A stretch of DNA of 64,000 nucleotides from Rhizobium sp. Pop5 (GTDB lineage Bacteria > Pseudomonadota > Alphaproteobacteria > Rhizobiales > Rhizobiaceae): contig NZ_CP099399.1 in NCBI RefSeq assembly GCF_024721175.1, positions 434,001-498,000 on the forward strand, written 5' to 3'. The notes beneath the pieces were generated by a model. The model was not told where the DNA came from, did not search any database, and saw only the letters and a list, made by a program, of their open reading frames with translations. Within the stretch, counting starts at the first letter, position 1; each line of letters starts with the position of its first letter. Position numbers and translations under genes: made by a program. Shown piece by piece: positions 8,899-64,000 of this stretch.

Positions 8899-11800
8899 TC
8901 AGCCGGCCAGTACGCGCTGTGACGGGAAGGTGATTTCGACGAGCGTGCCTTCGTTCGGCGCCGAATTGATCGAGAAAGTCGCCCGGTTGGCATCCACCAT
9001 TGCCTTCGTCAGCGGCAGGCCGAGGCCTGTGCCGTCGCCGCGATGGCGCGATTGGGTCGAGGAAACTTGCCGGAATGGCTTCATTGCCTGGTCGAGTTCG
9101 CTGCGCGTCATGCCGACGCCAGTGTCGCGGACCCTCAATACGACGCTGCCGTTCGCTTCATAGGAGGTGGAAACGACGATCTGCCCGCCCGATGGGGTGA
9201 AGCGGATGGCGTTCGACAGAATATTGAGGGCGATCTGCTTGATCGAGCGCAGATCCGCCACGACATCAGGCACCGAATGCGACAGCGCGGTGCGGATGAT
9301 GACGCGCTGGCCGTTCGCCTGCGGCTGCACCAGCGCCACGGCCTCCGAGACCGCCTCGTTGAGGCCGACGGCGGCAAAATCGAGATCCATCTCGCCCGCC
9401 TCGATCTTGGAGATATCGAGCAGGTCGTTGACGATATCGAGGACATGCCTGCCGGAGCGGCCGATGTCGTTGGCATATTCGATGTAGCGCGGATGGCCGA
9501 TCGGCCCGAAGCGCTCGCCCGCCATCATGTCGGAAAAGCCGATGATGGCGTTGAGCGGCGTGCGGATCTCATGGCTGACGCGGGCGAGGAAATCAGTCTT
9601 GTGGGCATTGGCGGTTTCGGCCGCGCCCTTGGCGTTGCGCAGTTCGTCCTCGGTGCGCTTCCACTGGGTGATATCGCGGATGACGGCGCAATAGCCGTTG
9701 GAGGAGGTAAGCCGGCCCATCGTCATGAACAGCGGCACGAAGCCACCGGCGGCTTCGCGACCGATCACTTCGCGCCCGTCGTTCAGCACGCTGGCGACGC
9801 CATGTCCGGAAAGACCATTCAGATAATCCAGCACCGCCTTCTGGCTCTCATGGGCAAACAGCATCACGAAGGGTTTGCCGCGCGTCTCCTGTTCGTCGTA
9901 ATTGAAAAGCGCGCTGGCCGATCGGTTCATCGAGCGGATATCGCCTTCCGTGCCGATGACGACGACGCCGTCGGTCGCCGTTTCCAGGATCGAGCGCAAT
10001 TCTTCCACTTCGACCTGAAGCTTGGCGACCTTCTCGACCATCCGCTCGGGACGCGTTTCGGGCCGGGCCTCGGAACGGCTTGGTTCACTGCGGCTGTCTT
10101 CCTTGCCTTCCACCGGCATCAGCGCCAGCATCAGGGCATTTGCGTCTTCCCAACGCACCGACTGCAGCCGCGCGGTCACCGGCGCCAACGTATCATCGGC
10201 CTTGACCAGCATCATGGTGCCGGAGCCGGCCGCCTTTTCCTCAAGTTCGCGACGCTGCAGCAGGGCTTCGATGCCGCCCACTTCGCGCAGTGCATCGAGC
10301 GAAGCATAGCCCGTCAGCCGCATGAATTCGGGATTGGCGTGAAGCAGCGAATCGCCGACATGGATAAGTACGGCGACAGGCAGCTGATCGACGGTTCCTG
10401 CCGAAAGGCCATCTGTCATCTTGACGCGCGGTGGAATGAAGCTTGTGAGAACCTCGATCTGGCTGACGGTCTCCTCAAGTCCCTCCGTCGCTTCGTCTTC
10501 GACAGTGATCGCCGGCTCCTCGGCATCGTCGTCGCGCTCTGTCTCGACGGCATTCTCGAAGATCGCCTCCTGGGGCGCGGTCTCCTCGACGAAGGGCGTC
10601 TCGCTTTTGTCGGCAAGGGCTGTTTCGGACCGGGGTTCCTCGGCCGCGGAGGCATCCTCGAAACCCGCCGGTTCCGAGGTGTTTCCATCAGCCGCCGGCG
10701 CGGCGGGCTCCTCCTGGCGCGCGCCGAATGCTTCGAGACGTTTGGCGATCTCGCGGAAATTGGCCTGCTCGGCGGCCGTCAATCCGGCGCCGCCGCTGTG
10801 AAGTTGCACGACCTTGTCGGTGAAACGGCGATTAGGGGTCTCCGAAATGCGCAGTGCCGGCGGCTCTTCCGCGGGGCTGGCGGCCGGCTCGGCGGCGGCC
10901 TCCTCGGCATCAGCATTGCTCGCCGGTTCCTCCGCGGCCGTTTCGAAGGCGGCTTCTGCGGCAATCCCTTCCGATACCTGCTCTTCGGTCTCGGGTTGGG
11001 TTGCTGCGAGCGCCTGGTCCTCGATCTCGTCTGCTGCAATCGTTTCGGCTGGCGCTTCTTCGGGCGCGGCTTCCGCTTCGTGGGACATGTCCTCGATCGG
11101 GCCGAGGCTTGCCGTATCATGGCCGACGCCATCCGGGCCGAGCGTCAGGCCGAGCGCCAGCGGATCTTCCTGCGCATCGGAAAGCCGGACGACGCCGAAG
11201 CCGCGGAAACCGTCGAAGTCGCGGTTGCGGGTATAGGTCGGCAGTGCCGCGAGATCGACCGGAACGACGAGGCTGGTGCCTTCGACCGGCCAAAGGATCG
11301 TCTTGCCCGACCATGTGTCGCGGCGGGCGAGCGCTTCGGCAAGCTTGCCGTCGGGATCGAGATTGAAGAGGGCGGCGATATCGCCGAAGGCGGAGCCGAT
11401 GACGTCCGAGGCGTGCGGACCGACGGCCTCGGCAAATTCGTGGCTGACCTCGTTGAACCTGCCCTCGGCGTCGATCTTCCAGACAAAGCGCGTGGCGCGG
11501 CTGTTCGGCCTGAAGACGAAGCCGGGCTCCGCCGCGGGCTGCGGGGCAGGGGCGGTTTCGGGAGCCGTTGGCGTGATGACGGCGGGTTCTTCGAAGACCG
11601 CTTCCGATGCTTCTTTGATATATGTCTCGGTTGTGCCGACCGGCGGCTCCGCCGTCTCGGCCGCTTCCACCGTCTCAGGCGCGGAAGTTTCGCTTTCCTC
11701 GATGAGCACAGCCGGCTCATGGACCTCATCCGCGTTGGTGTCGATGACCTCGGTGCGGCTCTCCGACTCCTCGTGCCCGCCAGGCTGCATCCCTTCTATT

Positions 11801-12720
11801 GCTTCGTCTGCGGATGCTATGGCGGTTTCGGCCGGCTGTTCGCTTTGCCCGGCGATTTCCTCAAGCGTCTCCTCGACCTCTTCGATCCCGGAAACCGCGT
11901 CGATGATGTCGGTGAAGCCTGTCGCGGCGACGGGTTCGTCCTGAGGCGCCTCGGCTTGCGTCGGGTGTTCTTCCCGTGTAAGCGCCTCGGCTGCCTCCGG
12001 CACAGGCGAATCGATGGTTTCGTGCGCGGCCGCATCGATCGGGTCGAGATGGCCGAGCACCGTTTCGACGGCAAAGAGCAGATTGAGCGCCGGCTCGTCG
12101 CTGAGCTTGCCGACTGCCGCCGGAAGATAGCCTCTGCCGGTGGCGACGGGGCGCTTGACCAACCGGTCGGGATGCGCGCCGGCAAGATTGATCAGCGTCT
12201 TTGCCGTCTCACCGGAGATGGCGAGCGAGGCAAAGCCCGGCGAGGCCGCGATGACCTCGCCATTGGCGCCGATGACAGCCATGTGTGTGTCGGGATCGTC
12301 CAAACCCTGCAGCATCTGAGCCGCGGAGGCGCCTGGTGCAAGCGGTTTTGTCGAGACCGGCACCGAAAAGAGGATGGCCTGCTCGCCCTGGGAGAGCCGG
12401 ATCAGCTCGGCGGCTGCCTGCACCTGCACGCGCTGAAAGCCTTTGGCGACGCGGATCATCAAGGTGCGGCTGTCGCCGATATCTGTGAGCTGGCGTGCGG
12501 CCGTCTCCAGCTGACGGAAAGTGATGTCGGCCCGGTCGACGCCCTGGTCGAGCAGGTCATAGACCGCCGAATGGCCGAAAAGCTCCGCACCCGCGCCGTT
12601 TGCCCAGAGCAGACGGCCGAGATCGGCCGAAAACAACACCATCGCCTCGCCGCGTGAAAAGCGTTCTCGAACCCGCGCATGCACGGCAATGTCGATGAAC
12701 GGATATTGGACTGCGGGCAT
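8899..12720 (-). CDS. PdhS-like PAS sensor histidine kinase
   Basis: This 1273-residue kinase has no obvious transmembrane segments. A long N-terminal part with weak PAS-like regions is separated by acidic Glu/Ala/Pro-rich stretches (about 230-400 and 550-730). A PAS domain lies at about 905-1035, the HisKA dimerisation domain has its phospho-His in HEIRTPLNAII near 1049, and the HATPase follows with its N box (NILSNAIRFTP), G1 (RDTGVGM) and G2 (GTGLGLPLTKAMV). The sequence around the His and the QVSSTQSRHRGDGTGLGL segment resembles PdhS/PleC/DivJ kinases, which act on DivK in the alphaproteobacterial cell-cycle network. Assignment to PdhS is by resemblance only. No response regulator is adjacent. 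A 1204-residue frame on the opposite strand is a shadow produced by high GC. Confidence 0.8.
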   Translation of the reverse strand: MPAVQYPFIDIAVHARVRERFSRGEAMVLFSADLGRLLWANGAGAELFGHSAVYDLLDQGVDRADITFRQLETAARQLTDIGDSRTLMIRVAKGFQRVQVQAAAELIRLSQGEQAILFSVPVSTKPLAPGASAAQMLQGLDDPDTHMAVIGANGEVIAASPGFASLAISGETAKTLINLAGAHPDRLVKRPVATGRGYLPAAVGKLSDEPALNLLFAVETVLGHLDPIDAAAHETIDSPVPEAAEALTREEHPTQAEAPQDEPVAATGFTDIIDAVSGIEEVEETLEEIAGQSEQPAETAIASADEAIEGMQPGGHEESESRTEVIDTNADEVHEPAVLIEESETSAPETVEAAETAEPPVGTTETYIKEASEAVFEEPAVITPTAPETAPAPQPAAEPGFVFRPNSRATRFVWKIDAEGRFNEVSHEFAEAVGPHASDVIGSAFGDIAALFNLDPDGKLAEALARRDTWSGKTILWPVEGTSLVVPVDLAALPTYTRNRDFDGFRGFGVVRLSDAQEDPLALGLTLGPDGVGHDTASLGPIEDMSHEAEAAPEEAPAETIAADEIEDQALAATQPETEEQVSEGIAAEAAFETAAEEPASNADAEEAAAEPAASPAEEPPALRISETPNRRFTDKVVQLHSGGAGLTAAEQANFREIAKRLEAFGARQEEPAAPAADGNTSEPAGFEDASAAEEPRSETALADKSETPFVEETAPQEAIFENAVETERDDDAEEPAITVEDEATEGLEETVSQIEVLTSFIPPRVKMTDGLSAGTVDQLPVAVLIHVGDSLLHANPEFMRLTGYASLDALREVGGIEALLQRRELEEKAAGSGTMMLVKADDTLAPVTARLQSVRWEDANALMLALMPVEGKEDSRSEPSRSEARPETRPERMVEKVAKLQVEVEELRSILETATDGVVVIGTEGDIRSMNRSASALFNYDEQETRGKPFVMLFAHESQKAVLDYLNGLSGHGVASVLNDGREVIGREAAGGFVPLFMTMGRLTSSNGYCAVIRDITQWKRTEDELRNAKGAAETANAHKTDFLARVSHEIRTPLNAIIGFSDMMAGERFGPIGHPRYIEYANDIGRSGRHVLDIVNDLLDISKIEAGEMDLDFAAVGLNEAVSEAVALVQPQANGQRVIIRTALSHSVPDVVADLRSIKQIALNILSNAIRFTPSGGQIVVSTSYEANGSVVLRVRDTGVGMTRSELDQAMKPFRQVSSTQSRHRGDGTGLGLPLTKAMVDANRATFSINSAPNEGTLVEITFPSQRVLAG

Positions 12721-12828
12721 GATCGAACCTTGTCGCTGTCGGCCTCTTTAATTAACGGCTTATTAATAACTGCAGGGCGCAAGCCGGTCCAGAACAGCAG
12801 GGTTCTTTCGGCCGGAAAGGTTAACGAC

Positions 12829-12859
12829 TTGTGCGTCGCACAAAAAATGTTGCAATGCA
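12829..12859. promoter_or_regulatory. Two TGC-N3-GCA sites before phasin gene
   Basis: TTGTGCGTCGCACAA (12829-12843) is a perfect palindrome containing TGC-GTC-GCA. TGC-AAT-GCA follows at 12851-12859. PhaR/AniA repressors of polyhydroxybutyrate granule genes bind CTGC-N3/4-GCAG-type sites, so these are plausible operators for the phasin gene 75 bp downstream. The motif match is seen; the regulator is inferred. Confidence 0.45.
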
Positions 12860-12932
12860 CAATAAGATGCTCTATATAGACGTCATCCAACAATCCAAGG
12901 CATCGTTTGCCTCAGCCCAAAGGAATGCGACC

Positions 12933-13382
12933 ATGGCTACCATAAAGACCGATGACGTTTTTTCAATTGCTTCTTTCGACCCGTCCAAGCTCGCGGAATC
13001 CTTCCGTGACTTCGCCGAAAAAGGCGCACAGCAGTCCAAGGATGCCTATGCCAAGCTGAAGAGCGCTGGCGAGGAAGCCGGCAAGACGCTCGAAGCCACC
13101 GTCCAGACGGCACAGGCTGGCACCGTCGAACTCGGCCTGAAGGCGATTGACGTTCTGCGCGTCAACGCCGAGAGCTCGCTCTCACACATGGAAGCACTGC
13201 TCGGCGTCAAGTCCGCAGCCGAATTCTTCGAACTGCAGACCTCCTTCCTGCGCAAGCAGGCCGAACTCGCCGTCGAGCAGGCGAAGTCGATCCAGGAAAC
13301 CACCAAGCAGGTGGCCGAAAAGCTTGCCAAGCCCTCCAAGGACGCCGCCGAAAAGGCCATGGCCTCCTTCAAGAAGGCCTGA
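12933..13382 (+). CDS. Phasin family protein
   Basis: A 149-residue helical, Ala/Lys/Glu-rich protein with the phasin_2-type pattern (FDPSKLAESFRDFAEKG, then SHMEALLGVKSAAEFFELQTSFLRKQAE, then VEQAKSIQE). Phasins coat polyhydroxybutyrate granules, which rhizobia store in free-living cells and bacteroids. The ATG at 12933 is chosen because aaagga lies 9 bp upstream; the frame is open further upstream without a ribosome-binding site. Two possible PhaR operators precede it and a strong hairpin follows, so it is likely a single-gene transcript. Confidence 0.88.
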   Translation: MATIKTDDVFSIASFDPSKLAESFRDFAEKGAQQSKDAYAKLKSAGEEAGKTLEATVQTAQAGTVELGLKAIDVLRVNAESSLSHMEALLGVKSAAEFFELQTSFLRKQAELAVEQAKSIQETTKQVAEKLAKPSKDAAEKAMASFKKA

Positions 13383-49933: not shown

Positions 49934-50800
49934 CTATTCGTCCAACAGACCGCGCAGATATTGGCCATAATCCCCTTTACCCGCTTTCGCAGCAATTCTG
50001 GCGAAATCCGGCTTCGTTATGAAGCCCTTTGCGAGCGCAATTTCCTCCGGGCAGGCAATTTTGAAGCCCTGGCGTTTTTCAAGCGTGCGCACGAACTCGC
50101 CGGCTTCGAGCAGGCTTTCGGGAGTGCCTGTATCCAGCCAGGCGTATCCGCGGCCCATCATCGAGACACGCAGTTTCCCGCGCTCCAGATAGGTTTTGTT
50201 GACGTCGGTAATTTCATATTCCCCACGCGATGACGGCTTCAATTTGGCTGCTATGTCCACGACGTCTGCATCGTAAAAATAAAGACCGGTGACAGCCCAG
50301 CGCGATTTCGGCGTCGCCGGTTTTTCATCAATCGAAATTGCAGTCATATCGCTGCCGAATTCGACGACGCCGTAGCGTTCGGGATCGTTAACGTGATAGA
50401 CAAATATGGTCGCGCCGTCGCCTTTAGACACAGCCTCTTCAAGCAGTTCGGGCAGGCCGTGGCCGAAGTAGATATTGTCTCCGAGGATGAGGCAGGATGG
50501 TCCGCCCGCTACGAAGTCTGCGCCGATAATGTAGGCTTGGGCCAATCCATCGGGACTCGGCTGCACGGCGTAGCTCAGCGACATGCCCCATTCACTGCCA
50601 TCACCAAGCAATCGCTGAAAAAGCGGCAAATCGTGGGGGGTGGAGATGATCAGGACTTCCCGTATGCCTGCCAGCATCAAGGTCGTCAGCGGGTAATAGA
50701 TCATTGGCTTGTCATAGACCGGAAGCAACTGCTTTGAGACAGAATAAGTCATCGGGTGCAGGCGGCTGCCGCTCCCCCCCGCAAGCACGATACCTTTCAT
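49934..50800 (-). CDS. rfbA: Glucose-1-phosphate thymidylyltransferase
   Basis: 288 residues from the ATG overlapping the rfbD stop; the longer frame to 50860 lies inside rfbD. Nucleotidyltransferase motif [11 protein letters not shown], then [17 protein letters not shown] and [12 protein letters not shown]. Makes dTDP-glucose from dTTP and glucose-1-phosphate. Last of the rfbC-B-D-A set. Confidence 0.93.
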
Positions 50801-51690
50801 GTGGTCTCCTTCGGCTCTTCCAAGAGCTTCGTCACGGCAGCTTGCGTTGATCCCTGCCACTCCGGCATGCTGACGCCATAAAGACGCTTCAACTTATCGC
50901 AGCACAATCGAGAATTGGCCGGCCGTTTGGCGGCTGTAGGGTAGTCAGCGGTTGCAATGTCCTTGACAGTGACACGCCTGCCGGTCTTTTCCTCAAGAAT
51001 GGAAAATATATATCGCGCGAACTCGGCCCAGTTCGTTTCGCCGCTGCCGGCCAGATGAAAAACGCCGCGCAAGTCTGGGCTGGAGTCGCTTAATAGCCTG
51101 GCTGCGATTTTGACGATAGCCTCAGCGATGTCGTTGGCTGAGGTCGGGCAACCCAGTTGATCACTCACAACGCTCAACTCCTCTCGCGTCTGCGCAAGCC
51201 TGAGCATGGTTTTCAGGAAGTTATGGCCACACGTTGAATAAACCCAGGCCGTCCGCAGGATCGCATGGTTTTCATTCGCTGCGGCAACGGCATGTTCGCC
51301 CTCGAGCTTCGATCTGCCGTAGACGGAGACCGGTCCAACCGGGTCGCTCTCGATATAAGGGCCTGACTTGTCTCCGTCGAAAACATAATCGGTCGAAAGA
51401 TGGATGATGGGAAGGGAGAGTTCGGCAGTCGCAGCAGCGATGGCTTTTGCGCCGTCCCGATTGATGGCGAAAGCTGACGCCTCGTCTCTTTCAGCCTTAT
51501 CGACGGCAGTGTAGGCCGCCGCCGAGACAACGACGTCAGGCTTGGTCCTGGCAATCGTTTCGCTCACCATCGAAGGATTGAGCAAATCCAACTCCGGCCT
51601 TCCTACGGGGATGACCTCTACACCCGGCACCTTCAGCGCCTGCAAAGCCGAAGTTACCTGGCCGCTCTTGCCTGTTACCGCGATGCGCAT
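50797..51690 (-). CDS. rfbD: dTDP-4-dehydrorhamnose reductase
   Basis: 297 residues: GKSGQV nucleotide motif, [14 protein letters not shown], and the catalytic YGRSK. It reduces dTDP-4-keto-rhamnose to dTDP-L-rhamnose. Coupled to rfbA by a 4-bp overlap; rfbB ends one base before its ATG. Confidence 0.92.
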
Positions 51691-51691
51691 C

Positions 51692-52747
51692 TCATCCCTT
51701 TTTCAACATGCCAAGTCGCTCACCGCCATACACGCCCGAACGCAGCGGCTGCCACCACCATGCATTTTCCAGATACCACTCGACGGTCTTGCGAATGCCG
51801 CTGTCGAAATTCTCCAGCGCGCTCCAGCCGAGTTCGGTCTCGAGCTTGGTCGCATCGATAGCGTAGCGGGCATCGTGTCCCGGCCGATCGATAACGTAGC
51901 TTATAAGATCGCTATGCGGTGCGTGTCCCGGCCGTAATTCATCCATGATCGCGCAGACGCGCTCGACGACCTCGATGTTTCGCCGTGCGTTGCGCCCGCC
52001 GACATTGTATTTTTCGCCGAGACGGCCTCGCCGGACGATCAGCCAGAGCGCTCGTGCGTGGTCGTCGACATAGAGCCAGTCGCGAACGTTGGAGCCGCTT
52101 CCGTAGACGGGCAATGACTTCCGTTCCAGCGCATTCAATATGATGAGAGGAATGAGCTTTTCCGGGAAATGAAACGGACCGTAATTGTTCGAACAGTTAG
52201 AAATGATCACCGGCAGGCCGTAAGTCCGCTCCCACGCCATTGCCAGGTGATCGCTGGCCGCCTTGGATGCGGAATAAGGAGAGGACGGATCGTAAGGCGT
52301 CGTCTCGGCAAACGACCCGACTTCACCGAGAGAACCATAGACTTCGTCGGTAGACACATGCAGCATCCTGAAGGCCGCCTTTTCATCCGCCGGAAGGTCC
52401 TGCCAATATTGCCGAGCGGCCTCCAACATTCTGAAGGTGCCGTTTATATTCGTTTCAATAAAATCTGCCGCGCCGGTAATCGAGCGATCGACGTGGCTTT
52501 CCGCCGCCAGATGCATGACGTAGTCGGGACGAAACTCCTGGAAAGCGTTCGAGACTGCGCTTCTGTCGCAAATGTCCGCTTTGAGAAACCTGTAGTTGGG
52601 AGCATTCTCGATCGACTTCAGGGAAGCGAGATTGCCGGCATAGGTCAGCTTATCGATATTGAGGACTTCAGCGCCGATGTCGCTGACGAGATAGCGCACC
52701 AATGCCGAGCCGATGAAGCCAGCGCCACCCGTCACAAGAACACGCAT
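51692..52747 (-). CDS. rfbB: dTDP-glucose 4,6-dehydratase
   Basis: 351 residues from [14 protein letters not shown] (the longer frame to 52837 overlaps rfbC). Extended SDR with [19 protein letters not shown] (Tyr-x3-Lys) and the nucleotide-sugar block [18 protein letters not shown]. Converts dTDP-glucose to dTDP-4-keto-6-deoxyglucose. Confidence 0.93.
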
Positions 52748-52760
52748 GAGGCTCTCCGCT

Positions 52761-53327
52761 TTATGAAAATTGAAAATATGGGAGAAGTTCGGTAAGCAGC
52801 GGCTGCTTGTTGTCCTTATCGGAAAGGACATAGGCATCCATCAGCGGCCACCGAATTCCTATGGCGGGATCGTCCCACCGCACCCCGCGGTCATGCTCCG
52901 CGCTATAGGGAGCGGTCACCTTGTAACTGATGATCGTATCGGGCTGCAGTGTGATGAACCCATGCGCAAATCCGGTCGGAACCCAAAGCTGTGCGCCGTT
53001 CTCCGGCGACAGTTCTGCCGAGACCCATTTTCCGTAGGTTGGAGAGCTATGTCTGATATCGACGGCCACATCCAGGAGCGCGCCACGAAGGCAGCGCACG
53101 AGTTTGCCCTGTGCGATGGGAGGCAATTGAAAATGCAATCCCCGGACGGTTCCCGGTTGCGCTGAAAGGGATTCATTGTCCTGTACGAAAGTAACATCGG
53201 CCACATTTGCGCGGAACCAGGAATCTTTGAAGACTTCGCTGAAATAGCCCCTTGAGTCGCCAAATCTGGCGGGAGTGATCCTTTTAACATCCCCGATCTC
53301 GAGTTGTTCAAGATTCAACGCGTACAT
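52761..53327 (-). CDS. rfbC: dTDP-4-dehydrorhamnose 3,5-epimerase
   Basis: 188 residues with the RmlC cupin pattern ([25 protein letters not shown] with the catalytic His, [17 protein letters not shown]). Start of the rfbCBDA transcript on the minus strand. Confidence 0.92.
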
Positions 53328-53552: not shown

Positions 53553-54509
53553 TTAGTCAAGAGATTCAATTGCCCTGGGAAGCAACGACCAGGACACAAA
53601 ATCTGCATATGCCTGCGTAATGCCATCGCTAAGTGATGTGGTGGCCCTCCACCCAAGTGCCGCCAAACGGTCAACACTCATCAGCTTACGCGGCGTTCCG
53701 TCTGGTTTCGTCTGATCATAAACAATCTCACCCTTGAAGCCGACGACCCTCATGATTGTCTCGGCAAGTTCTCGGATGGTGATGTCTTCGCCCGTCCCGA
53801 CATTGATGAGCCCTTCGCTGACGTCGCTTTCCATCAAAAATACACAAGCGTCAGCCATATCATCGACATAGAGGAACTCGCGCATCGGCCGACCGGACCC
53901 CCAGACGACCAGTTGCCGATCACCACGAACCTTGGCCTCATGGACCTTTCTGATCAGGGCCGGCATCACATGGCTACTGTCCAAATCATAGTTGTCATTC
54001 GGCCCGTACAGATTAGTCGGCATCCCCGAGACATAGCGGGTTCCATATTGCCGATTGTAGCTCTCGCAGAGCTTGACCCCCGCTATCTTGGCGATCGCAT
54101 AAGGCTCGTTCGTCGGCTCCAGCGGGCCAGTCAGCAAATACTCCTCTCGAATGGGCTGAGGGCAGTCGCGTGGGTAGATGCAACTCGAGCCAAGAAAAAG
54201 CATGCGTTCCACACCAGCCTGCCAGGCGGCATTAACAACATTCGTCTCGATCATCAGATTCTGGTAGAGGAACTCGGCACGATAAACGTTATTTGCATGG
54301 ATGCCGCCAACCCTTGCCGCGGCCATGAAGATGTAGTCCGGCCGCTCCGCCTTCATGAATTCGGCAACGGCCGCCTGATTGACGAGATCCAGCTCGGCGT
54401 GGCTTCTGGTGACGATGTTCGTGTAGCCGCCAGCCTTCAGCCTCCGGACAATGGCCGACCCCACCATGCCTCGATGGCCTGCAACATAGATCTTCACGTC
54501 TCTGTTCAT
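53553..54509 (-). CDS. fcl: GDP-L-fucose synthase
   Basis: 318 residues: [40 protein letters not shown] (Tyr-x3-Lys), and [10 protein letters not shown]. The bifunctional epimerase/reductase turns GDP-4-keto-6-deoxymannose into GDP-L-fucose. It lies 4 bp after gmd in the same transcript. Fucose is a known O-antigen sugar of R. etli and R. leguminosarum. Confidence 0.92.
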
Positions 54510-54513
54510 CGGA

Positions 54514-55596
54514 TCACTCGTGATAATCGTATGCGGAGAAGCCGTGGCGTTTCACGAGTTCGTCCCGCTCTGCGGACTTAAGATCCTCGCGCATCATTTC
54601 CTTAACAAGCTGCTTAAAGGTTATCCTTGGTTCCCAGCCGAGCTTTTCCTTCGCCTTCGACGGATCGCCCAGCAGAGTCTCGACCTCTGTGGGACGGAAG
54701 TATCGGGGGTCGACCGCGACGATGCAGCGGCCGTTCTCGTCGTAGCCTTTTTCCTCGGCGCCTGATCCCTTCCATGAGATTGGAAGCCCAATCTCATGCG
54801 CCGCGGCGTCAACGAATTCGCGGACGCTGTACTGCACGCCAGTGGCGATGACGAAATCCTCCGGCTCGTCCTGCTGCAGCATCAGCCATTGCATCTCAAC
54901 ATAGTCTTTGGCATGCCCCCAGTCACGCTTTGCGTCCAGGTTGCCGAGATAGAGGCATTCCTGAAGGCCAAGCTTGATACGCGCCATTGCACGGGTGATC
55001 TTGCGCGTCACAAAGGTCTCGCCACGCACGGGGCTCTCGTGGTTGAAGAGGATGCCGTTGCAGGCATAAAAACCATAGGCTTCCCGATAGTTAACCGTGA
55101 TCCAGTAGGCGTAGAGTTTGGCGACAGCGTACGGCGAGCGCGGATAGAAAGGGGTCGTTTCGCGTTGCGGGATTTCCTGCACCAGGCCGTAGAGTTCGGA
55201 AGTGGACGCCTGGTAGAAACGCGTCTTCTTCTCAAGGCCGAGAATGCGGATCGCCTCGAGGATGCGCAGCGCGCCGAGCGCGTCGGAATTCGCCGTATAT
55301 TCCGGCTCTTCGAATGAGACGGCGACATGCGACTGCGCCGCGAGGTTATAGATCTCGTCGGGCTGGACCTGCTGGATGATGCGAACGAGGCTCGATGAAT
55401 CCGTCATGTCCCCGTAGTGCAGCACAAGCCTGCGGTTGGTGTCGTGTGGGTCCTGGTAGAGGTGGTCGATACGGTCAGTATTGAAGAGGGACGTGCGGCG
55501 CTTGATGCCGTGTACCTCATATCCCTTCTCGATGAGAAGCTCTGCAAGATAGGAGCCGTCCTGGCCCGTGATCCCTGTGATGAGGGCTCTTTTCAT
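54514..55596 (-). CDS. gmd: GDP-mannose 4,6-dehydratase
   Basis: 360 residues: [43 protein letters not shown] and [17 protein letters not shown]. Makes GDP-4-keto-6-deoxymannose for fucose. First gene of the gmd-fcl pair. A distinct, shorter paralogue is at 62507-63478. Confidence 0.93.
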
Positions 55597-56245: not shown

Positions 56246-57274
56246 ATGTTTCGCAAAGATGTTCTCGAAGAATCGCCCTTCGTGATTGCCGAAGTGGGCC
56301 AAAATCATCAGGGAGACCTGGATATCGCCCGGGAATATATTCGAATTTATGCATTCGAAGGCGCGGATGCGATCAAGTTTCAGACGCGCAACAATAGGTA
56401 CCTTTTTTCGGAGGATGCTTATGCGGCTGGCTATGATAGCGAAAATGCTTTTGCAGAAACCTATGGCGCTCATCGAGAGAAGCTCGAGCTAAAGCCGGAA
56501 TGGTTGCCTATTCTGAAGGCTGATTGCGAAAAGCACGGCGTGAAGTTCATGTCGACACCCTTCGACGAGCCAAGTCTCGAGATTCTTCAGCAGATTGATG
56601 TCGACCTGTTGAAAGTGGCTTCGTTCGATCTTGGCAACCTTCCCTTCCTCAATCGAATCGCGAAACTAGGTAAGCCCGTTGTCATGAGCATTGGCGGCGG
56701 CAAGATCGAACAGATTCGGTCCAGCGTCGAGGTAGTGTTGAAGCATCACGATCAGTTGGCCATCCTGCACTGCGTCTCCGAATACCCGTGCGAGTACAAC
56801 CGCCTTGGGCTGGACAATATTGAGGTTCTCATCAAGGAGTTTCCGGATTGTATCGTCGGCTCGTCCGATCACTTCAACGGGACGTTGTCAGGCCCGATTG
56901 CCTACATGAAGGGCGCGCGCGTGTTCGAAAAGCACGTTACCCTCAACCGTGCCTGGAAAGGCACCGACCACAGCTTTGCACTGGAGCCAGACGGCTTCCG
57001 CAAGTTCGTGCGTGACATCAAACGCGTCCGCGCGATGATGCCTCAGAAGCCGGCGGACGAGATCGGCAACGAAAGAGTGTTCAAAAAGCTGGGCAAGTCG
57101 ATCATCGCATATTCGGACATTCGCGTCGGCGAAGAGTTGACCATGGATAAGCTTTCGGGCCGCATTTTCAATACTCATTTCATCCCTGTGCGGGAGAGCA
57201 ACACGGTTCTCGGAAAAACGGTGAAGCGGGATATTGCAAAGGGTGAGCCCATTCAATACTCCGATTTCGGCTGA
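56246..57274 (+). CDS. NeuB-type N-acetylneuraminate synthase family protein
   Basis: 342 residues. A TIM-barrel NeuB domain (FVIAEVGQNHQGDLDIAREYI, KFQTRNNRY, STPFDEPSLEIL, HCVSEYPC, GSSDHFNG, FEKHVTL) and a C-terminal SAF/antifreeze-like domain (about 285-342, SIIAYSDIRVGEELT). It condenses phosphoenolpyruvate with an aldose to make a 2-keto-3-deoxy sugar acid. Which aldose is used is unknown; no NeuC- or LegB/PseB-type genes are visible. First gene of a plus-strand operon. Confidence 0.88.
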   Translation: MFRKDVLEESPFVIAEVGQNHQGDLDIAREYIRIYAFEGADAIKFQTRNNRYLFSEDAYAAGYDSENAFAETYGAHREKLELKPEWLPILKADCEKHGVKFMSTPFDEPSLEILQQIDVDLLKVASFDLGNLPFLNRIAKLGKPVVMSIGGGKIEQIRSSVEVVLKHHDQLAILHCVSEYPCEYNRLGLDNIEVLIKEFPDCIVGSSDHFNGTLSGPIAYMKGARVFEKHVTLNRAWKGTDHSFALEPDGFRKFVRDIKRVRAMMPQKPADEIGNERVFKKLGKSIIAYSDIRVGEELTMDKLSGRIFNTHFIPVRESNTVLGKTVKRDIAKGEPIQYSDFG

Positions 57275-57421
57275 GCTTCCGTTCCGAGGCTTCGAGGGGA
57301 TACGCAGCGAGCCTCGATACGGAACCTCCCCGAAAAACCCAGGGGTTGGCAGATCGGGTAAGGAGAGCGGCGCCCAATCGCTCTCCGCCGGTCAGGCCTG
57401 CATCGAGACGAGGTGGCAATC

Positions 57422-58234
57422 ATGAATGTCGATGGACTTTTTGACGTGAGTGGCGACATCGTCCTTGTAACCGGTGTTTCCGGCCAACTGGGCGGCGAGT
57501 ACGCCAAGGCTTTTCTGGCGCGCAGTGCGCGCGTTGTTGGCCTTGATCTCCGCCCCTCTGCCGGCAGCTTCGCGATGCAGGACGAATACCCCGACAATTT
57601 CATGTTTTGTTCGGCGGATGTGACCAAGAAGGCGTCATTGGAGGAGGCGCTTCATGACGTGACCGGTAGATTCGGTACCCCCACCGTTCTCATCAACAAT
57701 GCCGCTATCGATTCTCCGCCTTCCGCCCCGCCCGAGGAAAACGGGCCGTTCGAAGACTACCCGGAAGCGTCTTGGGACAAGGTTATCGACGTGAACCTCA
57801 AGGGCGTCTATCTCTCATGCCAGGTATTCGGGGCCGAGATGGCCAATGCCGGCAAGGGATCAATCATCAACGTTGCTTCCATTTATGGGCTCGTTTCTCC
57901 CGACCAGAGCCTCTACGAATATCGCCGAAAGCGCGGAGAGGTGTTCTTCAAGCCCGTAGCCTATTCAGCATCGAAATCCGGTATCCTGAATCTGACGCGA
58001 TACTTGGCGACTTATTGGGCGAAGCGCAACGTGCGCGTAAACTCGCTGACGATCGCGGGCGTCTTTAACAGCCAGGAACCCGACTTCCTCGATGTTTACT
58101 GCAGCCGGATCCCTATCGGTCGTATGGCGAGCGTCGATGAATACAACGGCGCTATGTTATTCTTGGCGAGCCCTGCATCCCAATATATGACGGGCTCTAA
58201 TCTCATCATCGACGGCGGCTGGACGGCAATCTGA
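57422..58234 (+). CDS. SDR family oxidoreductase in NeuB operon
   Basis: 270 residues from ATG 57422 (gagg site; a GTG three codons earlier is an alternative). Classical SDR: TGVSGQLGGEYA, NNAAIDS, Ser in VASIYG, and YSASKSGIL, ending LIIDGGWTAI. PtmA-type SDRs occur in some nonulosonic acid loci. It ends 2 bp before the aldehyde dehydrogenase gene. Confidence 0.85.
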   Translation: MNVDGLFDVSGDIVLVTGVSGQLGGEYAKAFLARSARVVGLDLRPSAGSFAMQDEYPDNFMFCSADVTKKASLEEALHDVTGRFGTPTVLINNAAIDSPPSAPPEENGPFEDYPEASWDKVIDVNLKGVYLSCQVFGAEMANAGKGSIINVASIYGLVSPDQSLYEYRRKRGEVFFKPVAYSASKSGILNLTRYLATYWAKRNVRVNSLTIAGVFNSQEPDFLDVYCSRIPIGRMASVDEYNGAMLFLASPASQYMTGSNLIIDGGWTAI

Positions 58235-58236
58235 AC

Positions 58237-59697
58237 ATGACGACGCTTCGCATTCTCAATTGGATCAACGGCCAGGCCAGCCACGCCTCGAGCGAAGGAT
58301 GGCTTGAGAAATTCAATCCGCACAGTGGCGAACTCCTTTATCACGTGGCTGACTCTTCGCAGGATGATGTTGAGCAAGCGATAACCACAGCGCGTTCGGC
58401 GTTCCCAGCGTGGGCGGAGCTTACACCCGTAAAGCGCGGCCAGATTCTGATGGATATCGTCGCCCTGATGAAGCGGCGTTCCGATGAGCTGGCGGAATGC
58501 ATTGCGGTTGAAACCGGCAAGCCTCCCCAGGACGCCAAAGGCGAGACCGGCGGAGCGATCATGCAGGCGGAATATTTCGCGGGCGAGGGTATGCGCCTAT
58601 ACGCCCGGTCGCTCACCTCAGGCACGCCCGGCAAATATAGCCACACCGTGCGCCAGCCTCGTGGCGTAGCTGGCCTGATCGTGCCGGCAAATACGCCGAT
58701 CGCCAACATCGCATGGAAGACTTTTCCGGCACTTATCTGCGGCAATACAGTGGTCCTAAAGGCCGCCGAAGATTCACCACGCATCGCTCAGCTCTTTGCC
58801 GAATTGACTAAGGAGGCAGGGTTGCCTGACGGCGTATTCAACGTCGTGCATGGACGCGGCGAGCCGGCTGGCTCGACGTTGGTCACAGACGAACGGGTCG
58901 GCATCATCAGCTTCACAGGCTCAACCGGAGTAGGCCGCAGGATTGCGGAAGTCGCCGGTAGGCGACTCGCCCGTGTTTCTCTTGAACTGGGCGGCAAGAA
59001 CCCCTTTGTTGTCTGTGACGACGCAGATCTCGATCAGGCGGTGCACTGGGCGGCGTTGTCGGCCTTCAGCAATGCCGGCCAACGCTGCGCCGCCGGGAGC
59101 CGCATGCTGGTTTTTAGATCCGTCTACGACGAGTTTCGGAGCCGATTGGCCGCCAAGGCCAAAGGCCTCACGCTCGGCGTTGCCGCCGGATGCGATCTCG
59201 GACCGCTCGTTAGCCTTCGTCAGCAACAGTCTGTGCTTTCCGCCATCGAGCGCGCAAAGGGGCAGGGCGGCCAGGTGCTTTGTGGGGGACGCGCACCGGA
59301 CGCACCGGAGTTGGCCGCTGGCTACTACGTCGAACCCACTGTCATCGATGGTCTTGCTACCACCTCGGAGCTCAGCTGCAAGGAAGTCTTCGGTCCGGTG
59401 ACAACACTTCACCCTGTTGACAGCATGTCGGAGGCTTTGGACGTGGCAAATGCCACAGAATACGGATTGACCGCTGCTGTGCACACCAGCAACGTCGATC
59501 GTGCGATGTGGTTTGCTCAAAGGGTCAGGGCCGGCGTCGCGAACGTCAATATGGGCACTTACGGAAGCGAGCCGCACATGCCGTTCGGAGGCTTTGGATC
59601 GTCTGGGAATGGCACGCGCGAGCCTGGGGTCGAGGCACTTGATGTGTATTCGGAACTGAAAAACATCTCCTTCCTGGTCCGCACGGGAATGCTCTGA
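58237..59697 (+). CDS. Aldehyde dehydrogenase in NeuB operon
   Basis: 486 residues with all class motifs: LELGGKNPFVVCDDA (catalytic Glu), NAGQRCAAGSRM (catalytic Cys), and EVFGPVTTLH. It oxidises an aldehyde to an acid with NAD(P). An ALDH is not part of standard sialic, legionaminic or pseudaminic acid pathways. The tight spacing on both sides (2 bp) shows that it belongs to the operon. Confidence 0.88.
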   Translation: MTTLRILNWINGQASHASSEGWLEKFNPHSGELLYHVADSSQDDVEQAITTARSAFPAWAELTPVKRGQILMDIVALMKRRSDELAECIAVETGKPPQDAKGETGGAIMQAEYFAGEGMRLYARSLTSGTPGKYSHTVRQPRGVAGLIVPANTPIANIAWKTFPALICGNTVVLKAAEDSPRIAQLFAELTKEAGLPDGVFNVVHGRGEPAGSTLVTDERVGIISFTGSTGVGRRIAEVAGRRLARVSLELGGKNPFVVCDDADLDQAVHWAALSAFSNAGQRCAAGSRMLVFRSVYDEFRSRLAAKAKGLTLGVAAGCDLGPLVSLRQQQSVLSAIERAKGQGGQVLCGGRAPDAPELAAGYYVEPTVIDGLATTSELSCKEVFGPVTTLHPVDSMSEALDVANATEYGLTAAVHTSNVDRAMWFAQRVRAGVANVNMGTYGSEPHMPFGGFGSSGNGTREPGVEALDVYSELKNISFLVRTGML

Positions 59698-59699
59698 TC

Positions 59700-60470
59700 A
59701 TGACGACGAAGCCGCGCTCTGTTGCTTTTATTCCTGCGCGCTCTGGTTCGAAGCGCGTACCTAACAAGAATATCCGGCCTCTGGCCGAACACCCCATGAT
59801 CGCCTATTCGATCCGCGCTGCGATCGACAGCGGTGTTTTTGATGCCGTTATCTGCGCAACAGACAGCGAGATCTATGCGGACATCGCCCGCCATTATGGC
59901 GCCGAAGTGCCGTTTTTGCGTGCGGCGGAAATCTCTTCCGACAAGTCTCCGGACATCGAATGGGTGGTTTGGATGTTGGATCAGCTCCGTGCCGAGGGAC
60001 GCGAGTTCGACGTATTCAGCATCTTGCGCCCTACGAGCCCGTTTCGTCTTCCAGAGACAATCCAGCGTGCATGGCAGTGCTTCATGGCGGACCCAAGAGC
60101 AGATTCCCTTCGCGCCATCGAAAAATGCAAACAGCATCCGGGAAAGATGTGGGTCATACGTGAGAACAGGATGCTCCCTCTAATCCCATTTAGCATTGGC
60201 ACGACCCCATGGCATAGCAGCCAGTATGCTGCTCTGCCCGAGGTCTATGCACAGGATGCCAGCCTCGAGATTGCTTGGTCACGCGTCCCGCTCGAAAGCA
60301 ACAGTATTGCGGGCGAGTCAATCATTCCATTCGTCAGCCAGGGATACGAAGGCTTCGATATCAACGAACCGGAAGACTGGTGGATGGCAGAGCGACTGCT
60401 GGCGACGCGATCGGCAGCTCTTCCAAATATCTCAATCAACCCCTATAACCTATTGAATAGACCGGAGTAA
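59700..60470 (+). CDS. CMP-sugar synthetase (NeuA-like)
   Basis: 256 residues of the acylneuraminate cytidylyltransferase family: AFIPARSGSKRVPNKNIRPL near the N-terminus, ATDSEIYADIARHYGAEVPF, RPTSPFR, and FDINEPEDW near the C-terminus. It would activate the NeuB product with CTP. It starts 2 bp after the aldehyde dehydrogenase stop. Confidence 0.88.
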   Translation: MTTKPRSVAFIPARSGSKRVPNKNIRPLAEHPMIAYSIRAAIDSGVFDAVICATDSEIYADIARHYGAEVPFLRAAEISSDKSPDIEWVVWMLDQLRAEGREFDVFSILRPTSPFRLPETIQRAWQCFMADPRADSLRAIEKCKQHPGKMWVIRENRMLPLIPFSIGTTPWHSSQYAALPEVYAQDASLEIAWSRVPLESNSIAGESIIPFVSQGYEGFDINEPEDWWMAERLLATRSAALPNISINPYNLLNRPE

Positions 60471-60473
60471 GTC

Positions 60474-62396
60474 GTGGGCGATCTCGTAGGACAAGCGGTA
60501 GAAGGCACCCTTTACTACCTGCCGTATAAGGAGTTTCAGCGGGTACGTGCGATTAATACCTCTCGCGAACAGAGAGCCGCTCTCTTTTCTGATATGTGCC
60601 GTCTGAATGCTCTCTACATGATCGGTCGCGCCGGCTCCGGTCATATCGGTAGTAGTTTCAGCAGTCTCGATATCGTTAGCTGGCTTCTTCTCGAAGAAAT
60701 GACGGGCGATGACGTCTATTTCAGCTCCAAGGGACACGATGCGCCAGGCTACTACGCGGCACTGATTGGCGCCGGTAAGCTCGATTTCGAACTTATCCAC
60801 AAACTTCGCCAGATAGATGGTCTGCCGGGCCATCCCGATGTTGGCACCCCGGGGATGGTGACAAATACCGGCTCGCTCGGCATGGGTGTCTCCAAGGCCA
60901 AGGGCATGGTGATTGCGAACAGGATGAACAACCGCGTGGGGCGCATCTTCGTGATGACGGGCGACGGCGAGCTTCAAGAAGGCCAGTTCTGGGAATCCCT
61001 GGTCTCGGCAGCCAATTTTGGGCTGCAGGAGATTACGGTCATCATCGATCACAACAAGCTGCAGTCAGACACTTTCGTGAAGAACGTGTCTGATCTTGGT
61101 GACCTTGAGGCAAAGCTCGGGGCGTTTGGATGGTGTGTCGCTCGCTGTGACGGAAACGATATTGCTGCTTTTGCCGCCACGTTGAACTCCATCCAAGACG
61201 ACCCGCGTCCGAAGGTTATCGTTGCCGATACCGTCAAGGGCAAGGGCGTCTCCTTCATGGAGCATACGTCGCTGGATTCCGACGTGGCCATGTACCGCTT
61301 CCACAGCGGCGCGCCTGATGCGAGTAGCTACCGCGCTGCCGCGCAGGAAATCATGGATCGTCTGCAAGCCAATCTGAGCGGCGCCGGTATCACCGGGCTG
61401 GAGTTTGAAACGCTGGAACGGCCCGCATCCGCGGCCCCGTCGGAAAAGGCTCAGCGCCTCGTTGCCGCCTACAGCAAGGCTCTGATCGCACAGGCTGAGA
61501 AGCATTCGAACCTCGTTGCCCTTGACGCAGACCTGGTGCTGGATACCGGCCTCATCCCATTCCGCGAGCAGTTTCCCGATCGATTTATCGAATGCGGTAT
61601 CGCCGAACAGGATATGGTTTCCACAGCCGGCGGCATGGCGCTGAACGGCTTGCTGCCGATCGTCCACTCATTCGCGTGCTTCCTGTCAACGCGGCCAAAT
61701 GAGCAGATCTACAACAACGCCACGGAAAAGACGAAGATCATCTATGTCGGCTCTCTTGCAGGTGTCGTTCCCGGCGGCCCGGGGCACTCGCATCAATCCG
61801 TTCGAGATATCTCGGCGCTGGCAGCCATGCCTGGGATGGCGCTGGTAGAGCCGTCTTGCGATGCGGAGGTCGGTCTGCTTTTGGATTGGTGCGTGAACGA
61901 AGCGCCTGGCAGCAGCTACATCCGGCTGATATCAGTACCTTGGGAAGTCCCGTACTCACTTCCGGCCGACTATCGGCCAATAAAAGGCCGGGGTCTCACT
62001 CTCACAGAAGGTGAAGACGTCGCCATCATCGCTTACGGCCCGGTGCTCCTGAGCAATGCGATCGCCGCCTCAAAAATGCTCGCTGAAAAGCACGGTGTCA
62101 GTGCCAGAGTCATCAATTTGCCCTGGCTCAATCACGTAGACGCGAAATGGCTGCGATCGGCAGTTTCAGGATGCAGTGCGGTAGTCTCGCTTGACAATCA
62201 TTATCTGGTAGGCGGACAGGGTGATGCAATTGCCAGGGCGATGGTGCAGACGGGCTGTAGCGTGCCGGTAATTTGCTTGGGCGTAGGTGATATCCCTCCC
62301 AGTGGGACAAATGCCCAGGTTCTTGACGCATTGGGCCTCGATGCAATAGCCATCGCTGTGGCTGTCGCGGCAATATCGACCAAGGCAGGGTCATAG
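60474..62396 (+). CDS. Transketolase-like enzyme in NeuB operon
   Basis: 640 residues starting at GTG 60474, 3 bp after the CMP-sugar synthetase. It carries both transketolase halves in one chain: ThDP-binding GSGHIGSSFSSLDI, GDGELQEGQFWESL and the Pyr domain with GIAEQDMVSTAGGMAL (catalytic Glu), then HSHQSVRDISALAAMPG. It moves two-carbon units between sugars. In an operon of this kind it is probably dedicated to making or reshaping the aldose for the NeuB-type enzyme and not a pentose-phosphate housekeeping copy. The two halves are often separate genes in sugar loci; here they are fused. Confidence 0.87.
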   Translation: MGDLVGQAVEGTLYYLPYKEFQRVRAINTSREQRAALFSDMCRLNALYMIGRAGSGHIGSSFSSLDIVSWLLLEEMTGDDVYFSSKGHDAPGYYAALIGAGKLDFELIHKLRQIDGLPGHPDVGTPGMVTNTGSLGMGVSKAKGMVIANRMNNRVGRIFVMTGDGELQEGQFWESLVSAANFGLQEITVIIDHNKLQSDTFVKNVSDLGDLEAKLGAFGWCVARCDGNDIAAFAATLNSIQDDPRPKVIVADTVKGKGVSFMEHTSLDSDVAMYRFHSGAPDASSYRAAAQEIMDRLQANLSGAGITGLEFETLERPASAAPSEKAQRLVAAYSKALIAQAEKHSNLVALDADLVLDTGLIPFREQFPDRFIECGIAEQDMVSTAGGMALNGLLPIVHSFACFLSTRPNEQIYNNATEKTKIIYVGSLAGVVPGGPGHSHQSVRDISALAAMPGMALVEPSCDAEVGLLLDWCVNEAPGSSYIRLISVPWEVPYSLPADYRPIKGRGLTLTEGEDVAIIAYGPVLLSNAIAASKMLAEKHGVSARVINLPWLNHVDAKWLRSAVSGCSAVVSLDNHYLVGGQGDAIARAMVQTGCSVPVICLGVGDIPPSGTNAQVLDALGLDAIAIAVAVAAISTKAGS

Positions 62397-62506
62397 CTTA
62401 TCGTCGTAGTTCGCTCATCTGCCACCGTCGCAGGCGCGGTCGATCGGGAAAATTAAACGGGTGACACAGGGTGTGGGTTTGCTGCACCGCTCGCGGATTG
62501 GTTTGA

Positions 62507-63478
62507 ATGACTTCAAAAAAAGCTCTGATTTGCGGCATCTCCGGGCAAGACGGCACGCTTTTGGCTGATCTGTTACTGCGTGAGGGCTACGAGGTTATAG
62601 GCACCTCGCGAGACGCAGCGACGGCATCGTTTCGCAATCTTGAGCGACTTGAACTAAGGGATCGCTTAAAACTCGTCTCCATGGCGCCAACGGATTTTCG
62701 AAGCGTGCTCCAGACGTTATCTCGATCCCACCCCCATGAGATTTACAACCTCGCGGGACAGAGTTCTGTCGGCTTGTCTTTTGAGCAACCGGTCGAAACG
62801 ATGGAGAGTATCGTTTTCGGAACTTTGCATATCCTGGAAGCCATCCGATTCCTCGGCCTGGATACGCGCTTTTATAATGCGGGTTCGAGCGAATGTTTCG
62901 GCAATACCGGCGGACATCCGGCTGATGAGAACACGCCTTTTCGTCCCCGCAGCCCTTACGCAGTGGCCAAGGCTGCTGCTCAGTGGGAGGTAGCCAACTA
63001 CCGGGAGTCCTACGGGCAGTTTGCATGCACAGGCATACTGTTCAACCATGAATCACCATTCCGGCCCGAGCGCTTTGTCACAAAGAAGATTGTCTCTACA
63101 GCTTGCAAAATTTCCCGAGGTTCGAAACAAAAACTGAGGCTTGGCAACATAGACATTACAAGAGACTGGGGCTGGGCACCTGAGTATGTTCAAGCTATGT
63201 GGCTAATGCTTCAGCAAGACATCCCTGACGACTATGTAATCGCGACAGGTCAAAGCCATAGCCTCGAAGAGTTTCTGGACAAGACGTTTCGCCGACTTGG
63301 GTTGAAATGGAAAGAACATGTGGAAACGTCTGCTGAGTTCAGGCGCCCCTCAGACATTGCAGAAGGCCACGCCAACCCCGCAAAAGCGAGAGCGCAATTG
63401 GGCTGGACTTCGAAGTTGAGTCTGGATGACATCATCGATCGGCTCGTGTCTCACGAGCTTTCGTCTGCATCACAGTGA
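62507..63478 (+). CDS. GMD-like NDP-sugar dehydratase/epimerase
   Basis: 323 residues, an extended SDR close to GDP-mannose 4,6-dehydratases: GISGQDGTLLADLLLREGY, GSSECFG, YAVAKAAAQWEVANYRE, FNHESPFRPERFVTKKI. It is about 37 residues shorter than Gmd at 54514 and diverges in the C-terminal half. It may act on another NDP sugar or with different timing. Separated from the transketolase by 110 bp. Confidence 0.85.
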   Translation: MTSKKALICGISGQDGTLLADLLLREGYEVIGTSRDAATASFRNLERLELRDRLKLVSMAPTDFRSVLQTLSRSHPHEIYNLAGQSSVGLSFEQPVETMESIVFGTLHILEAIRFLGLDTRFYNAGSSECFGNTGGHPADENTPFRPRSPYAVAKAAAQWEVANYRESYGQFACTGILFNHESPFRPERFVTKKIVSTACKISRGSKQKLRLGNIDITRDWGWAPEYVQAMWLMLQQDIPDDYVIATGQSHSLEEFLDKTFRRLGLKWKEHVETSAEFRRPSDIAEGHANPAKARAQLGWTSKLSLDDIIDRLVSHELSSASQ

Positions 63479-63488
63479 GTTCGCATAC

Positions 63489-64000
63489 ATGATCACACGT
63501 TTTCTCTCTCGCTCTCGCCGATATCTCAGCCGTCTTAGTCATACCGCACGCAGCGACTCAGGCCCTGACGGCGAACTTGGCTGGCCGCATCTCGTCGTCA
63601 CGACGAAGCTTTGGAAACGCGCGCTGACCGAAACAAAGAAGGGCGACGTTGTTCTGATCGCTACAACGGTCAGTGGCTTCTATGCCGGTGTGTTGGTTGA
63701 AAGCCTCCTGGGAATTGCACTGACGCTTCGCGGAGCCCGTGTGCACTATTTGGTTTGCGACGCGCAGATGCCTACCTGCCTGCAGGTTCATCAAGGCAAG
63801 ATCGAGAGCGTCGACATCGTCACAGACTATAAGATGAAGGAAAAAGTCTGCCCTGGCTGTATTAAAAGAGGTGCAAAGCTTCTCGAACCACTTGGCCTTC
63901 CGGTCATCCGATATAGCGATCATCTTTCCTCGAGCAGGGCCCGCGAACTGCGCGATCTCGCTAATATGATTGATGTCGGCGAGATACCGGACTACATGCA
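63489..64000 (+). CDS. Cysteine-rich surface-polysaccharide protein (3' partial)
   Basis: Open from ATG 63489 (10 bp after the previous stop) to the window end, so only about 170 residues are visible. After a basic, Ser/Arg-rich start it has GDVVLIATTVSGFYAGVLVESLLGIAL and cysteine pairs (VCDAQMPTCLQ, KVCPGC) that recall metal-binding proteins found in nonulosonate and capsule loci. The family is not firmly recognised. Being last visible in the operon, it may be a glycosyltransferase or sugar-tailoring enzyme. Confidence 0.6.
   Translation, partial: MITRFLSRSRRYLSRLSHTARSDSGPDGELGWPHLVVTTKLWKRALTETKKGDVVLIATTVSGFYAGVLVESLLGIALTLRGARVHYLVCDAQMPTCLQVHQGKIESVDIVTDYKMKEKVCPGCIKRGAKLLEPLGLPVIRYSDHLSSSRARELRDLANMIDVGEIPDYM

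Follow-up and report, generated by a model that had tools for sequence, protein, structure and literature searches.

The analysed stretch, here called the window, comprises 64 kb of the 6.74 Mb genome of Rhizobium sp. Pop5 (contig NZ_CP099399.1, positions 434001-498000). Its last part encodes a NeuB-type synthase together with a short-chain dehydrogenase/reductase (SDR), an aldehyde dehydrogenase (ALDH), a CMP-sugar synthetase (NeuA) and a transketolase-superfamily protein (TKT). We are highly confident that this cassette is real, intact, conserved and widespread, and both the cassette and the alteration of its transketolase are well supported. Its probable product is a previously undescribed acidic sugar, in whose synthesis the transketolase would take part. 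An unusual 2-keto-3-deoxy sugar acid in the rhizobial surface polysaccharide had been suggested in an initial annotation of this DNA, and we likewise judge it likely. The order of the reactions and the product are less well supported than the cassette itself. We tentatively propose, as a possibility that falls short of being probable, that the cassette makes a CMP-activated, non-aminated 3-deoxy-2-ulosonic acid by chain shortening and installs it in an ABC-exported O-antigen. A search of the literature on neuB with transketolase, covering titles and the start of abstracts and mostly papers outside subscription journals, returned no description of such a cassette, and the available parts of three papers (PMC11766843, PMC11547076, PMC7371886) had unrelated content.

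A conserved gene set beside NeuB

A scan of genome contigs yielded 67 NeuB loci, of which 18 are near relatives (NeuB 67-97% identity) and 49 are distant (NeuB at most 37%). The search of other genomes for the gene set, proposed in the initial annotation, was rewarding: SDR, ALDH and TKT lie beside NeuB in 17 of the 18 near loci, the exception being a Prochlorococcus locus (L022). Since the arrangement recurs so regularly, it is not due to chance. The near loci include Zixibacteria and Bacteroidetes besides Proteobacteria. NeuA of the same type is present in 15 of them, divergent in L014 and L022, and absent from the stretch covered in L016. An apparent NeuA fusion in L087 turned out to be an artefact of open reading frame (ORF) calling; tblastn shows separate ALDH and NeuA. 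Furthermore, 16 of the 18 loci have a gene for a KdsC-like HAD phosphatase after neuB; in 15 it stands between NeuB and SDR, and the sixteenth is L022, which has no SDR. No HAD gene was found after neuB in the window, in L009 (Rhizobium) or in L023 (Thalassospira). We also considered a HAD remnant in the NeuB-SDR gap and dismissed it, the best matches having E values of only 1.6 (window) and 0.13 (L009). The one HAD protein of a relative that was scanned matches the KdsC and the Kdn-9-phosphatase models, both below cut-off (83 bits against 180 for the latter; Kdn, 2-keto-3-deoxynononic acid).

Among the distant loci, TKT was recovered in one of 49, as a split protein (L054), and ALDH in none. 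The zeros of this control are soft: it was a blastp search at E<=1e-25 on called ORFs, several stretches are short, and NeuB itself was not recovered in six of the 49. Fisher's test on TKT in near and distant loci gives p ~1e-13, for loci that are non-independent and for sets scored with different programs. Thirteen of the 18 near loci hold all six genes; in these, the pairwise distances of HAD, SDR, ALDH, NeuA and TKT correlate with rho of 0.65-0.92, and those of NeuB with rho from 0.17 (TKT, the weakest pair of the set) to 0.64 (HAD). We read these correlations as those of a putative tailoring unit beside an exchangeable NeuB.

At E<=1e-120, TKT was detected in three of 148 genomes of the same genus, in four of the 385 sampled from the class and in five of the 398 from the phylum, with the own genome counted each time; a family sample of 297 genomes gave two with NeuB (E<=1e-50). 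We tentatively propose that the cassette has spread horizontally. Proteins of R. leguminosarum share 98% identity with NeuB and 95% with TKT, and megablast gave no near-identical plasmid copies. GC content per kb is 0.53-0.60 from 50 kb of the window onwards versus 0.59-0.64 at 44-50 kb, as would be anticipated if the sugar cluster had been acquired.

At two near loci (L014:13880-16726 and L022:10023-12843) a sugar-acid-dehydratase-like protein of the enolase superfamily, a PanE-like reductase and a different NeuA accompany NeuB and HAD, which is an alternative module. Among 200 genomes of the genus of L022, only its own had a NeuB-HAD locus of this kind.

The enzymes and a possible chain-shortening route

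NeuB exceeds both domain cut-offs (PF03102, 225.6 against 22.1 bits; SAF, 22.6 against 21) and stays far under the equivalog cut-offs for N-acetylneuraminate synthase (249.8 versus 399.65) and pseudaminate synthase (205.8 versus 340.25). In meningococcal NeuB, Arg314 contacts the N-acetyl group of N-acetylmannosamine, according to the available part of PMC6795526. The aligned residue here is Ile307, which is invariant in all 19 alignment rows. Taken with the HAD gene next to neuB in relatives, the missing N-acetyl-contacting arginine suggests that the substrate is a phospho-sugar lacking an N-acetyl group, as in the conversion of mannose 6-phosphate to Kdn-9-phosphate that the accessible portion of PMC6200933 describes for Bacteroides thetaiotaomicron. 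The Rhizobium locus resembles that CMP-Kdn pathway in its NeuB-type synthase and CMP synthetase, in the HAD phosphatase of its relatives, and in that genes for an aminated precursor were not seen. It differs by its SDR, ALDH and divergent transketolase, and in that no HAD gene was detected in the window.

NeuB-family condensation and CMP activation are also shared with legionaminic and pseudaminic acid synthesis. However, the dehydratase, aminotransferase, acetyltransferase and hydrolase of these pathways (the B, C, H and G set), whose absence was noted in the initial annotation, were not seen among the scanned proteins of the downstream cluster or the upstream ones back to 49.9 kb, and the PseB and PseC models, the two searched genome-wide, gave no match over cut-off. 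A standard set just beyond the window was therefore rejected. The locus past position 64000, when read, held ABC export genes and glycosyltransferases instead.

For the SDRs of the window and of L010, the nearest models are GolD/DthD and gluconate 5-dehydrogenase, with KduD also listed, all below cut-off. GolD/DthD and gluconate 5-dehydrogenase oxidise next to the chain end, and KduD, by name, acts on a 3-deoxy-2-ulosonate. The nearest NCBIfam models of all three ALDHs tested, again below cut-off, are alpha-ketoglutaric semialdehyde and 2,5-dioxovalerate dehydrogenases, families whose substrates are 2-oxo acids with a terminal aldehyde.

The transketolase keeps the equivalents of the catalytic ketol and thiamine diphosphate residues H37, H77, R100, H110, H258 and E366 in 122 of 122 sequences. 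In alignments with a control, the positions of the human substrate ligands S345, H416, D424 and R474 (human numbering) are replaced; these residues presumably bind phosphate in the human enzyme. The ligand list is taken from PMC8016368, and the pairwise alignment has a gap at human R318. TKT thus seems, from these comparisons, to be repurposed, with its ketol-transfer core kept and its usual substrate ligands lost. The group is large: at least 7789 proteins reach E<=1e-100 among at least 7998 scored candidates. Bradyrhizobium and Tardiphaga occur among the best 120 of the 7789 matches. We considered bradyrhizose as a product for this reason and set it aside; the part of the O-antigen paper that is available (PMC4743980) names a dTDP-glucose 4,6-dehydratase cluster and there leaves transketolase unmentioned.

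Members of the transketolase superfamily outside the pentose phosphate pathway, as we propose for the Rhizobium protein, have been described before. The 6-deoxy-6-sulfofructose transketolase is one, and differs in being catabolic. Another is the tailoring enzyme Rif15, which transfers a two-carbon unit onto a ketone substrate with formation of a C-O bond and differs in having two subunits and rifamycin as substrate (PMC6002545, as far as available).

In the proposed route, NeuB, whose class is evident from its sequence, would condense phosphoenolpyruvate (PEP) with a sugar phosphate, perhaps mannose 6-phosphate as in Kdn synthesis. The phosphate would then be removed, by HAD in the relatives and by some other host enzyme in Rhizobium. 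SDR may oxidise the penultimate hydroxyl to a ketose-like HOCH2-CO- end, from which TKT would detach a two-carbon ketol unit and leave an aldehyde; the ligand loss seen in the alignments concerns this step. ALDH would oxidise the aldehyde to a carboxylate, giving an ulosaric acid two carbons shorter, for example 3-deoxy-heptulosaric acid. NeuA would make the CMP sugar, and KpsC-like enzymes, putatively assigned by motif and fold class, would transfer it before Wzm/Wzt export. A comparable order was proposed for the conversion of 5-keto-gluconate to tartaric acid, namely oxidation, removal of a two-carbon unit by transketolase and oxidation of the aldehyde, the last two enzymes being unconfirmed (PMC7970118, available part). 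Applied to the cassette, this scheme yields the shortened ulosaric acid.

Other NeuB types and alternative readings

SDR and TKT also occur with a different type of NeuB in three loci (L076, L088 and L089), the first two of which have NeuA; HAD was not found in the stretches covered. In L089 a DUF4910/DUF2172 protein lies between NeuB and SDR (11643-13082), and NeuA was not found in the 20-kb stretch. The second NeuB type was detected at E<=1e-85 in 3 of 378 sampled genomes, all three of which have TKT. The genes can also be dispersed. In genome G1105 a second-type NeuB, HAD, SDR and a KpsC-like gene (L162) stand apart from ALDH, NeuA, TKT and another KpsC-like gene (L091), and in G324 one 20-kb stretch holds TKT, NeuA, ALDH, SDR, HAD and a KpsC-like gene, with NeuB ~0.2 Mb off. 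L090 contains only TKT, a KpsC-like gene and a GDP-mannose 4,6-dehydratase-like (GMD-like) gene.

Among 23 TKT-like viral loci, four contigs carry NeuB-SDR-NeuA-TKT: L130 (7324-11922), L131 (2555-9071), L132 and L133 (48-5128), the last two of which look like one virus. A fifth contig, L139, has SDR, TKT pieces and NeuA. In L130 and L131 terminase and portal genes flank the cassette, and the viral cassettes also carry an FkbM-like methyltransferase. Viral TKT measures 420-424 aa in L130, L131 and L133; the C-terminal domain was not found in that of L130, the only one scanned, and no PHROG matches NeuB or TKT of L130. Further viral contigs (L134-L138, L140, L142-L152) have transketolase-like genes that match in two separate pieces, several near epimerase/dehydratase genes, and distant NeuB matches occur at 32 loci in viral contigs. 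A plasmid of Streptomyces sp. NBC_01237 (NZ_CP108509.1, L153:12123-15899) carries NeuB-SDR-TKT, and NeuA was not found within 29.8 kb of this plasmid stretch. Nearby are AMP-binding, P450, O-methyltransferase, glyoxalase-type and aminotransferase genes.

In the initial annotation it was suggested that the transketolase could supply NeuB. TKT would then make an unusual aldose that NeuB joins to PEP, the product would be an ulosonic acid of unusual length, and SDR and ALDH would act elsewhere on the route. Such feeding has a parallel in aminoshikimate antibiotics, where a transketolase feeds a DAHP-type synthase (DAHP, 3-deoxy-D-arabino-heptulosonate 7-phosphate), and it is consistent with the close pairing of NeuB with SDR and TKT in phage and Streptomyces and with the presence of TKT in all three sampled genomes that have the second NeuB type. 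We nevertheless hold it to be rather unlikely. One of the 18 near loci, L022, has NeuB and HAD but no TKT, and its genome, whose completeness is unreported, shows no such TKT at E<=1e-60. NeuB and TKT are the most weakly correlated pair. A phosphatase following NeuB implies that the substrate is a phospho-sugar, but the ligands that usually hold the substrate are gone from TKT. The supply role is thus not established. Since L022 lacks TKT, and another NeuB type can likewise be accompanied by SDR and TKT, tailoring after NeuB is favoured, although unproven, and feeding of NeuB ranks below it. Tailoring might also proceed by addition, with SDR creating a ketone (or later reducing one) and TKT adding a two-carbon ketol unit to give a branched or longer acid. 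This is unlikely in our view. Rif15 likewise moves its two-carbon unit onto a ketone, though as a C-O bond, and the phage and Streptomyces sets fit a reaction that needs no ALDH; ALDH would be unexplained in 17 of the 18 near loci. A plain Kdn-type pathway of NeuB, HAD and NeuA, beside which SDR, ALDH and TKT would make another sugar or a substituent, appears quite improbable: the three enzymes match the B. thetaiotaomicron Kdn-9-phosphate scheme (PMC6200933, available part), and the sub-threshold Kdn-9-phosphatase match of HAD agrees with it, but SDR, ALDH, NeuA and TKT are adjacent and strongly correlated.

Chain shortening after NeuB is hence the leading but unproven reading, and several observations weigh against it. 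TKT may act in either direction, and the models of supply and branching remain. Arg306, adjoining Ile307, is kept in 17 of 19 rows. ALDH is absent from the covered stretches of the phage, Streptomyces, L076, L088 and L089 loci, and other families come first for the four SDRs that were tested from second-type, phage and Streptomyces loci. The broader idea, that this transketolase lineage has moved out of sugar-phosphate metabolism and now edits the carbon chain of ulosonic acids, with a class of CMP-activated sugar diacids (ulosaric acids) in bacterial O-antigens and a minimal NeuB-SDR-NeuA-TKT version in phages near head-packaging genes, is conceivable and rather doubtful.

The surrounding O-antigen locus

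All seven genes listed from NeuB onwards are on the plus strand, as first annotated, and the six complete ORFs have no internal stops (Table 1). The tight spacing ascribed to all seven holds for four only: SDR, ALDH, NeuA and TKT are separated by 2-3 bp, and NeuB and the GMD-like gene are set off by 138 and 110 bp, so that the truly tight run consists of four genes. The GMD-like gene, counted earlier as part of the set, is present and accessory; seven of the 18 near loci have it alongside the cassette.

Table 1. Features of the window (positions within the 64-kb stretch)
Feature	Position	Strand	Basis
NeuB-type PEP-condensing synthase, 342 aa	56246-57274	+	PF03102 225.6 bits plus SAF
Gap neuB-SDR, place of KdsC-like HAD phosphatase gene in 15/18 relatives	57275-57412	+	Chance-level HAD matches only
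SDR oxidoreductase, likely start ATG 57422, YSASK active-site motif	57413-58234	+	GolD/DthD and gluconate 5-dehydrogenase models, both below cut-off
ALDH, NAGQRC and ELGGK motifs	58237-59697	+	PF00171 512 bits; nearest NCBIfam model alpha-ketoglutaric semialdehyde dehydrogenase, below cut-off
CMP-sugar synthetase, NeuA/PseF-like, CTP_transf_3	59700-60470	+	PF02348; PseF 136.6 bits, cut-off 205.7
TKT, transketolase-superfamily protein, 640 aa	60474-62396	+	Domain match, residue alignments, structure model, fold comparison
GMD-like, accessory	62507-63478	+	TIGR01472 335 bits versus cut-off 415
First 191 codons of 583-aa Capsule_synth/KpsC-like putative CMP-ulosonate glycosyltransferase, runs past window	63426-63998	+	PF05159 match, CMP motif, model
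RmlA, RmlD, RmlB, RmlC (dTDP-L-rhamnose)	49934-53327	-	Each over NCBIfam cut-off
GDP-L-fucose synthase and GDP-mannose 4,6-dehydratase	53553-55596	-	Both over NCBIfam cut-offs

The ORF at the window's edge, initially described as Cys-rich, encodes the first part of a 583-aa protein (L005:3426-5177) that narrowly passes PF05159 Capsule_synth (21.6 versus 20 bits). It carries a CMP-binding RxHP motif, and (K/R)xHP is found in all 11 full-length copies; the L024 copy is partial and stops before the motif. The structure model of a relative has its best alignment, though as part of a tie, with KpsC, a transferase of 3-deoxy-D-manno-oct-2-ulosonic acid (Kdo). KpsC (GT107) and WbbB (GT99) are retaining beta-Kdo transferases, from which the Rhizobium protein differs by an identity of 8-14% over aligned residues and by NxxxD instead of QxxxD. 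NxxxD (searched as [NQ]xxxDAQ) is found in 10 of 11 copies, with no match in L076. Judged by motif and fold, the 583-aa protein is a putative CMP-ulosonate transferase whose donor is probably not Kdo. Further downstream lie methyltransferases, a GT-FkbM protein, Wzm/Wzt-like ABC export genes, glycosyltransferases and a 597-aa paralogue (G000:C2:506219-508012, L005:12219-14012), so that this one O-antigen cluster holds two KpsC-like genes; a tRNA-Gln lies beyond the downstream part of the cluster. Two KpsC-like genes, each near the cassette, are also present in G711 and G1105.

Ulosonic acids are major sugars of the cell surface and of host recognition. If true, the chain-editing route would open a further branch of ulosonic-acid biosynthesis and assign a function to a large group of transketolases. 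Speculatively, it might be relevant to legume recognition in Rhizobium, and in phages the cassette may decorate the virion or the host. The finding raises a directly testable question, namely what a transketolase without its usual substrate ligands does beside NeuB.

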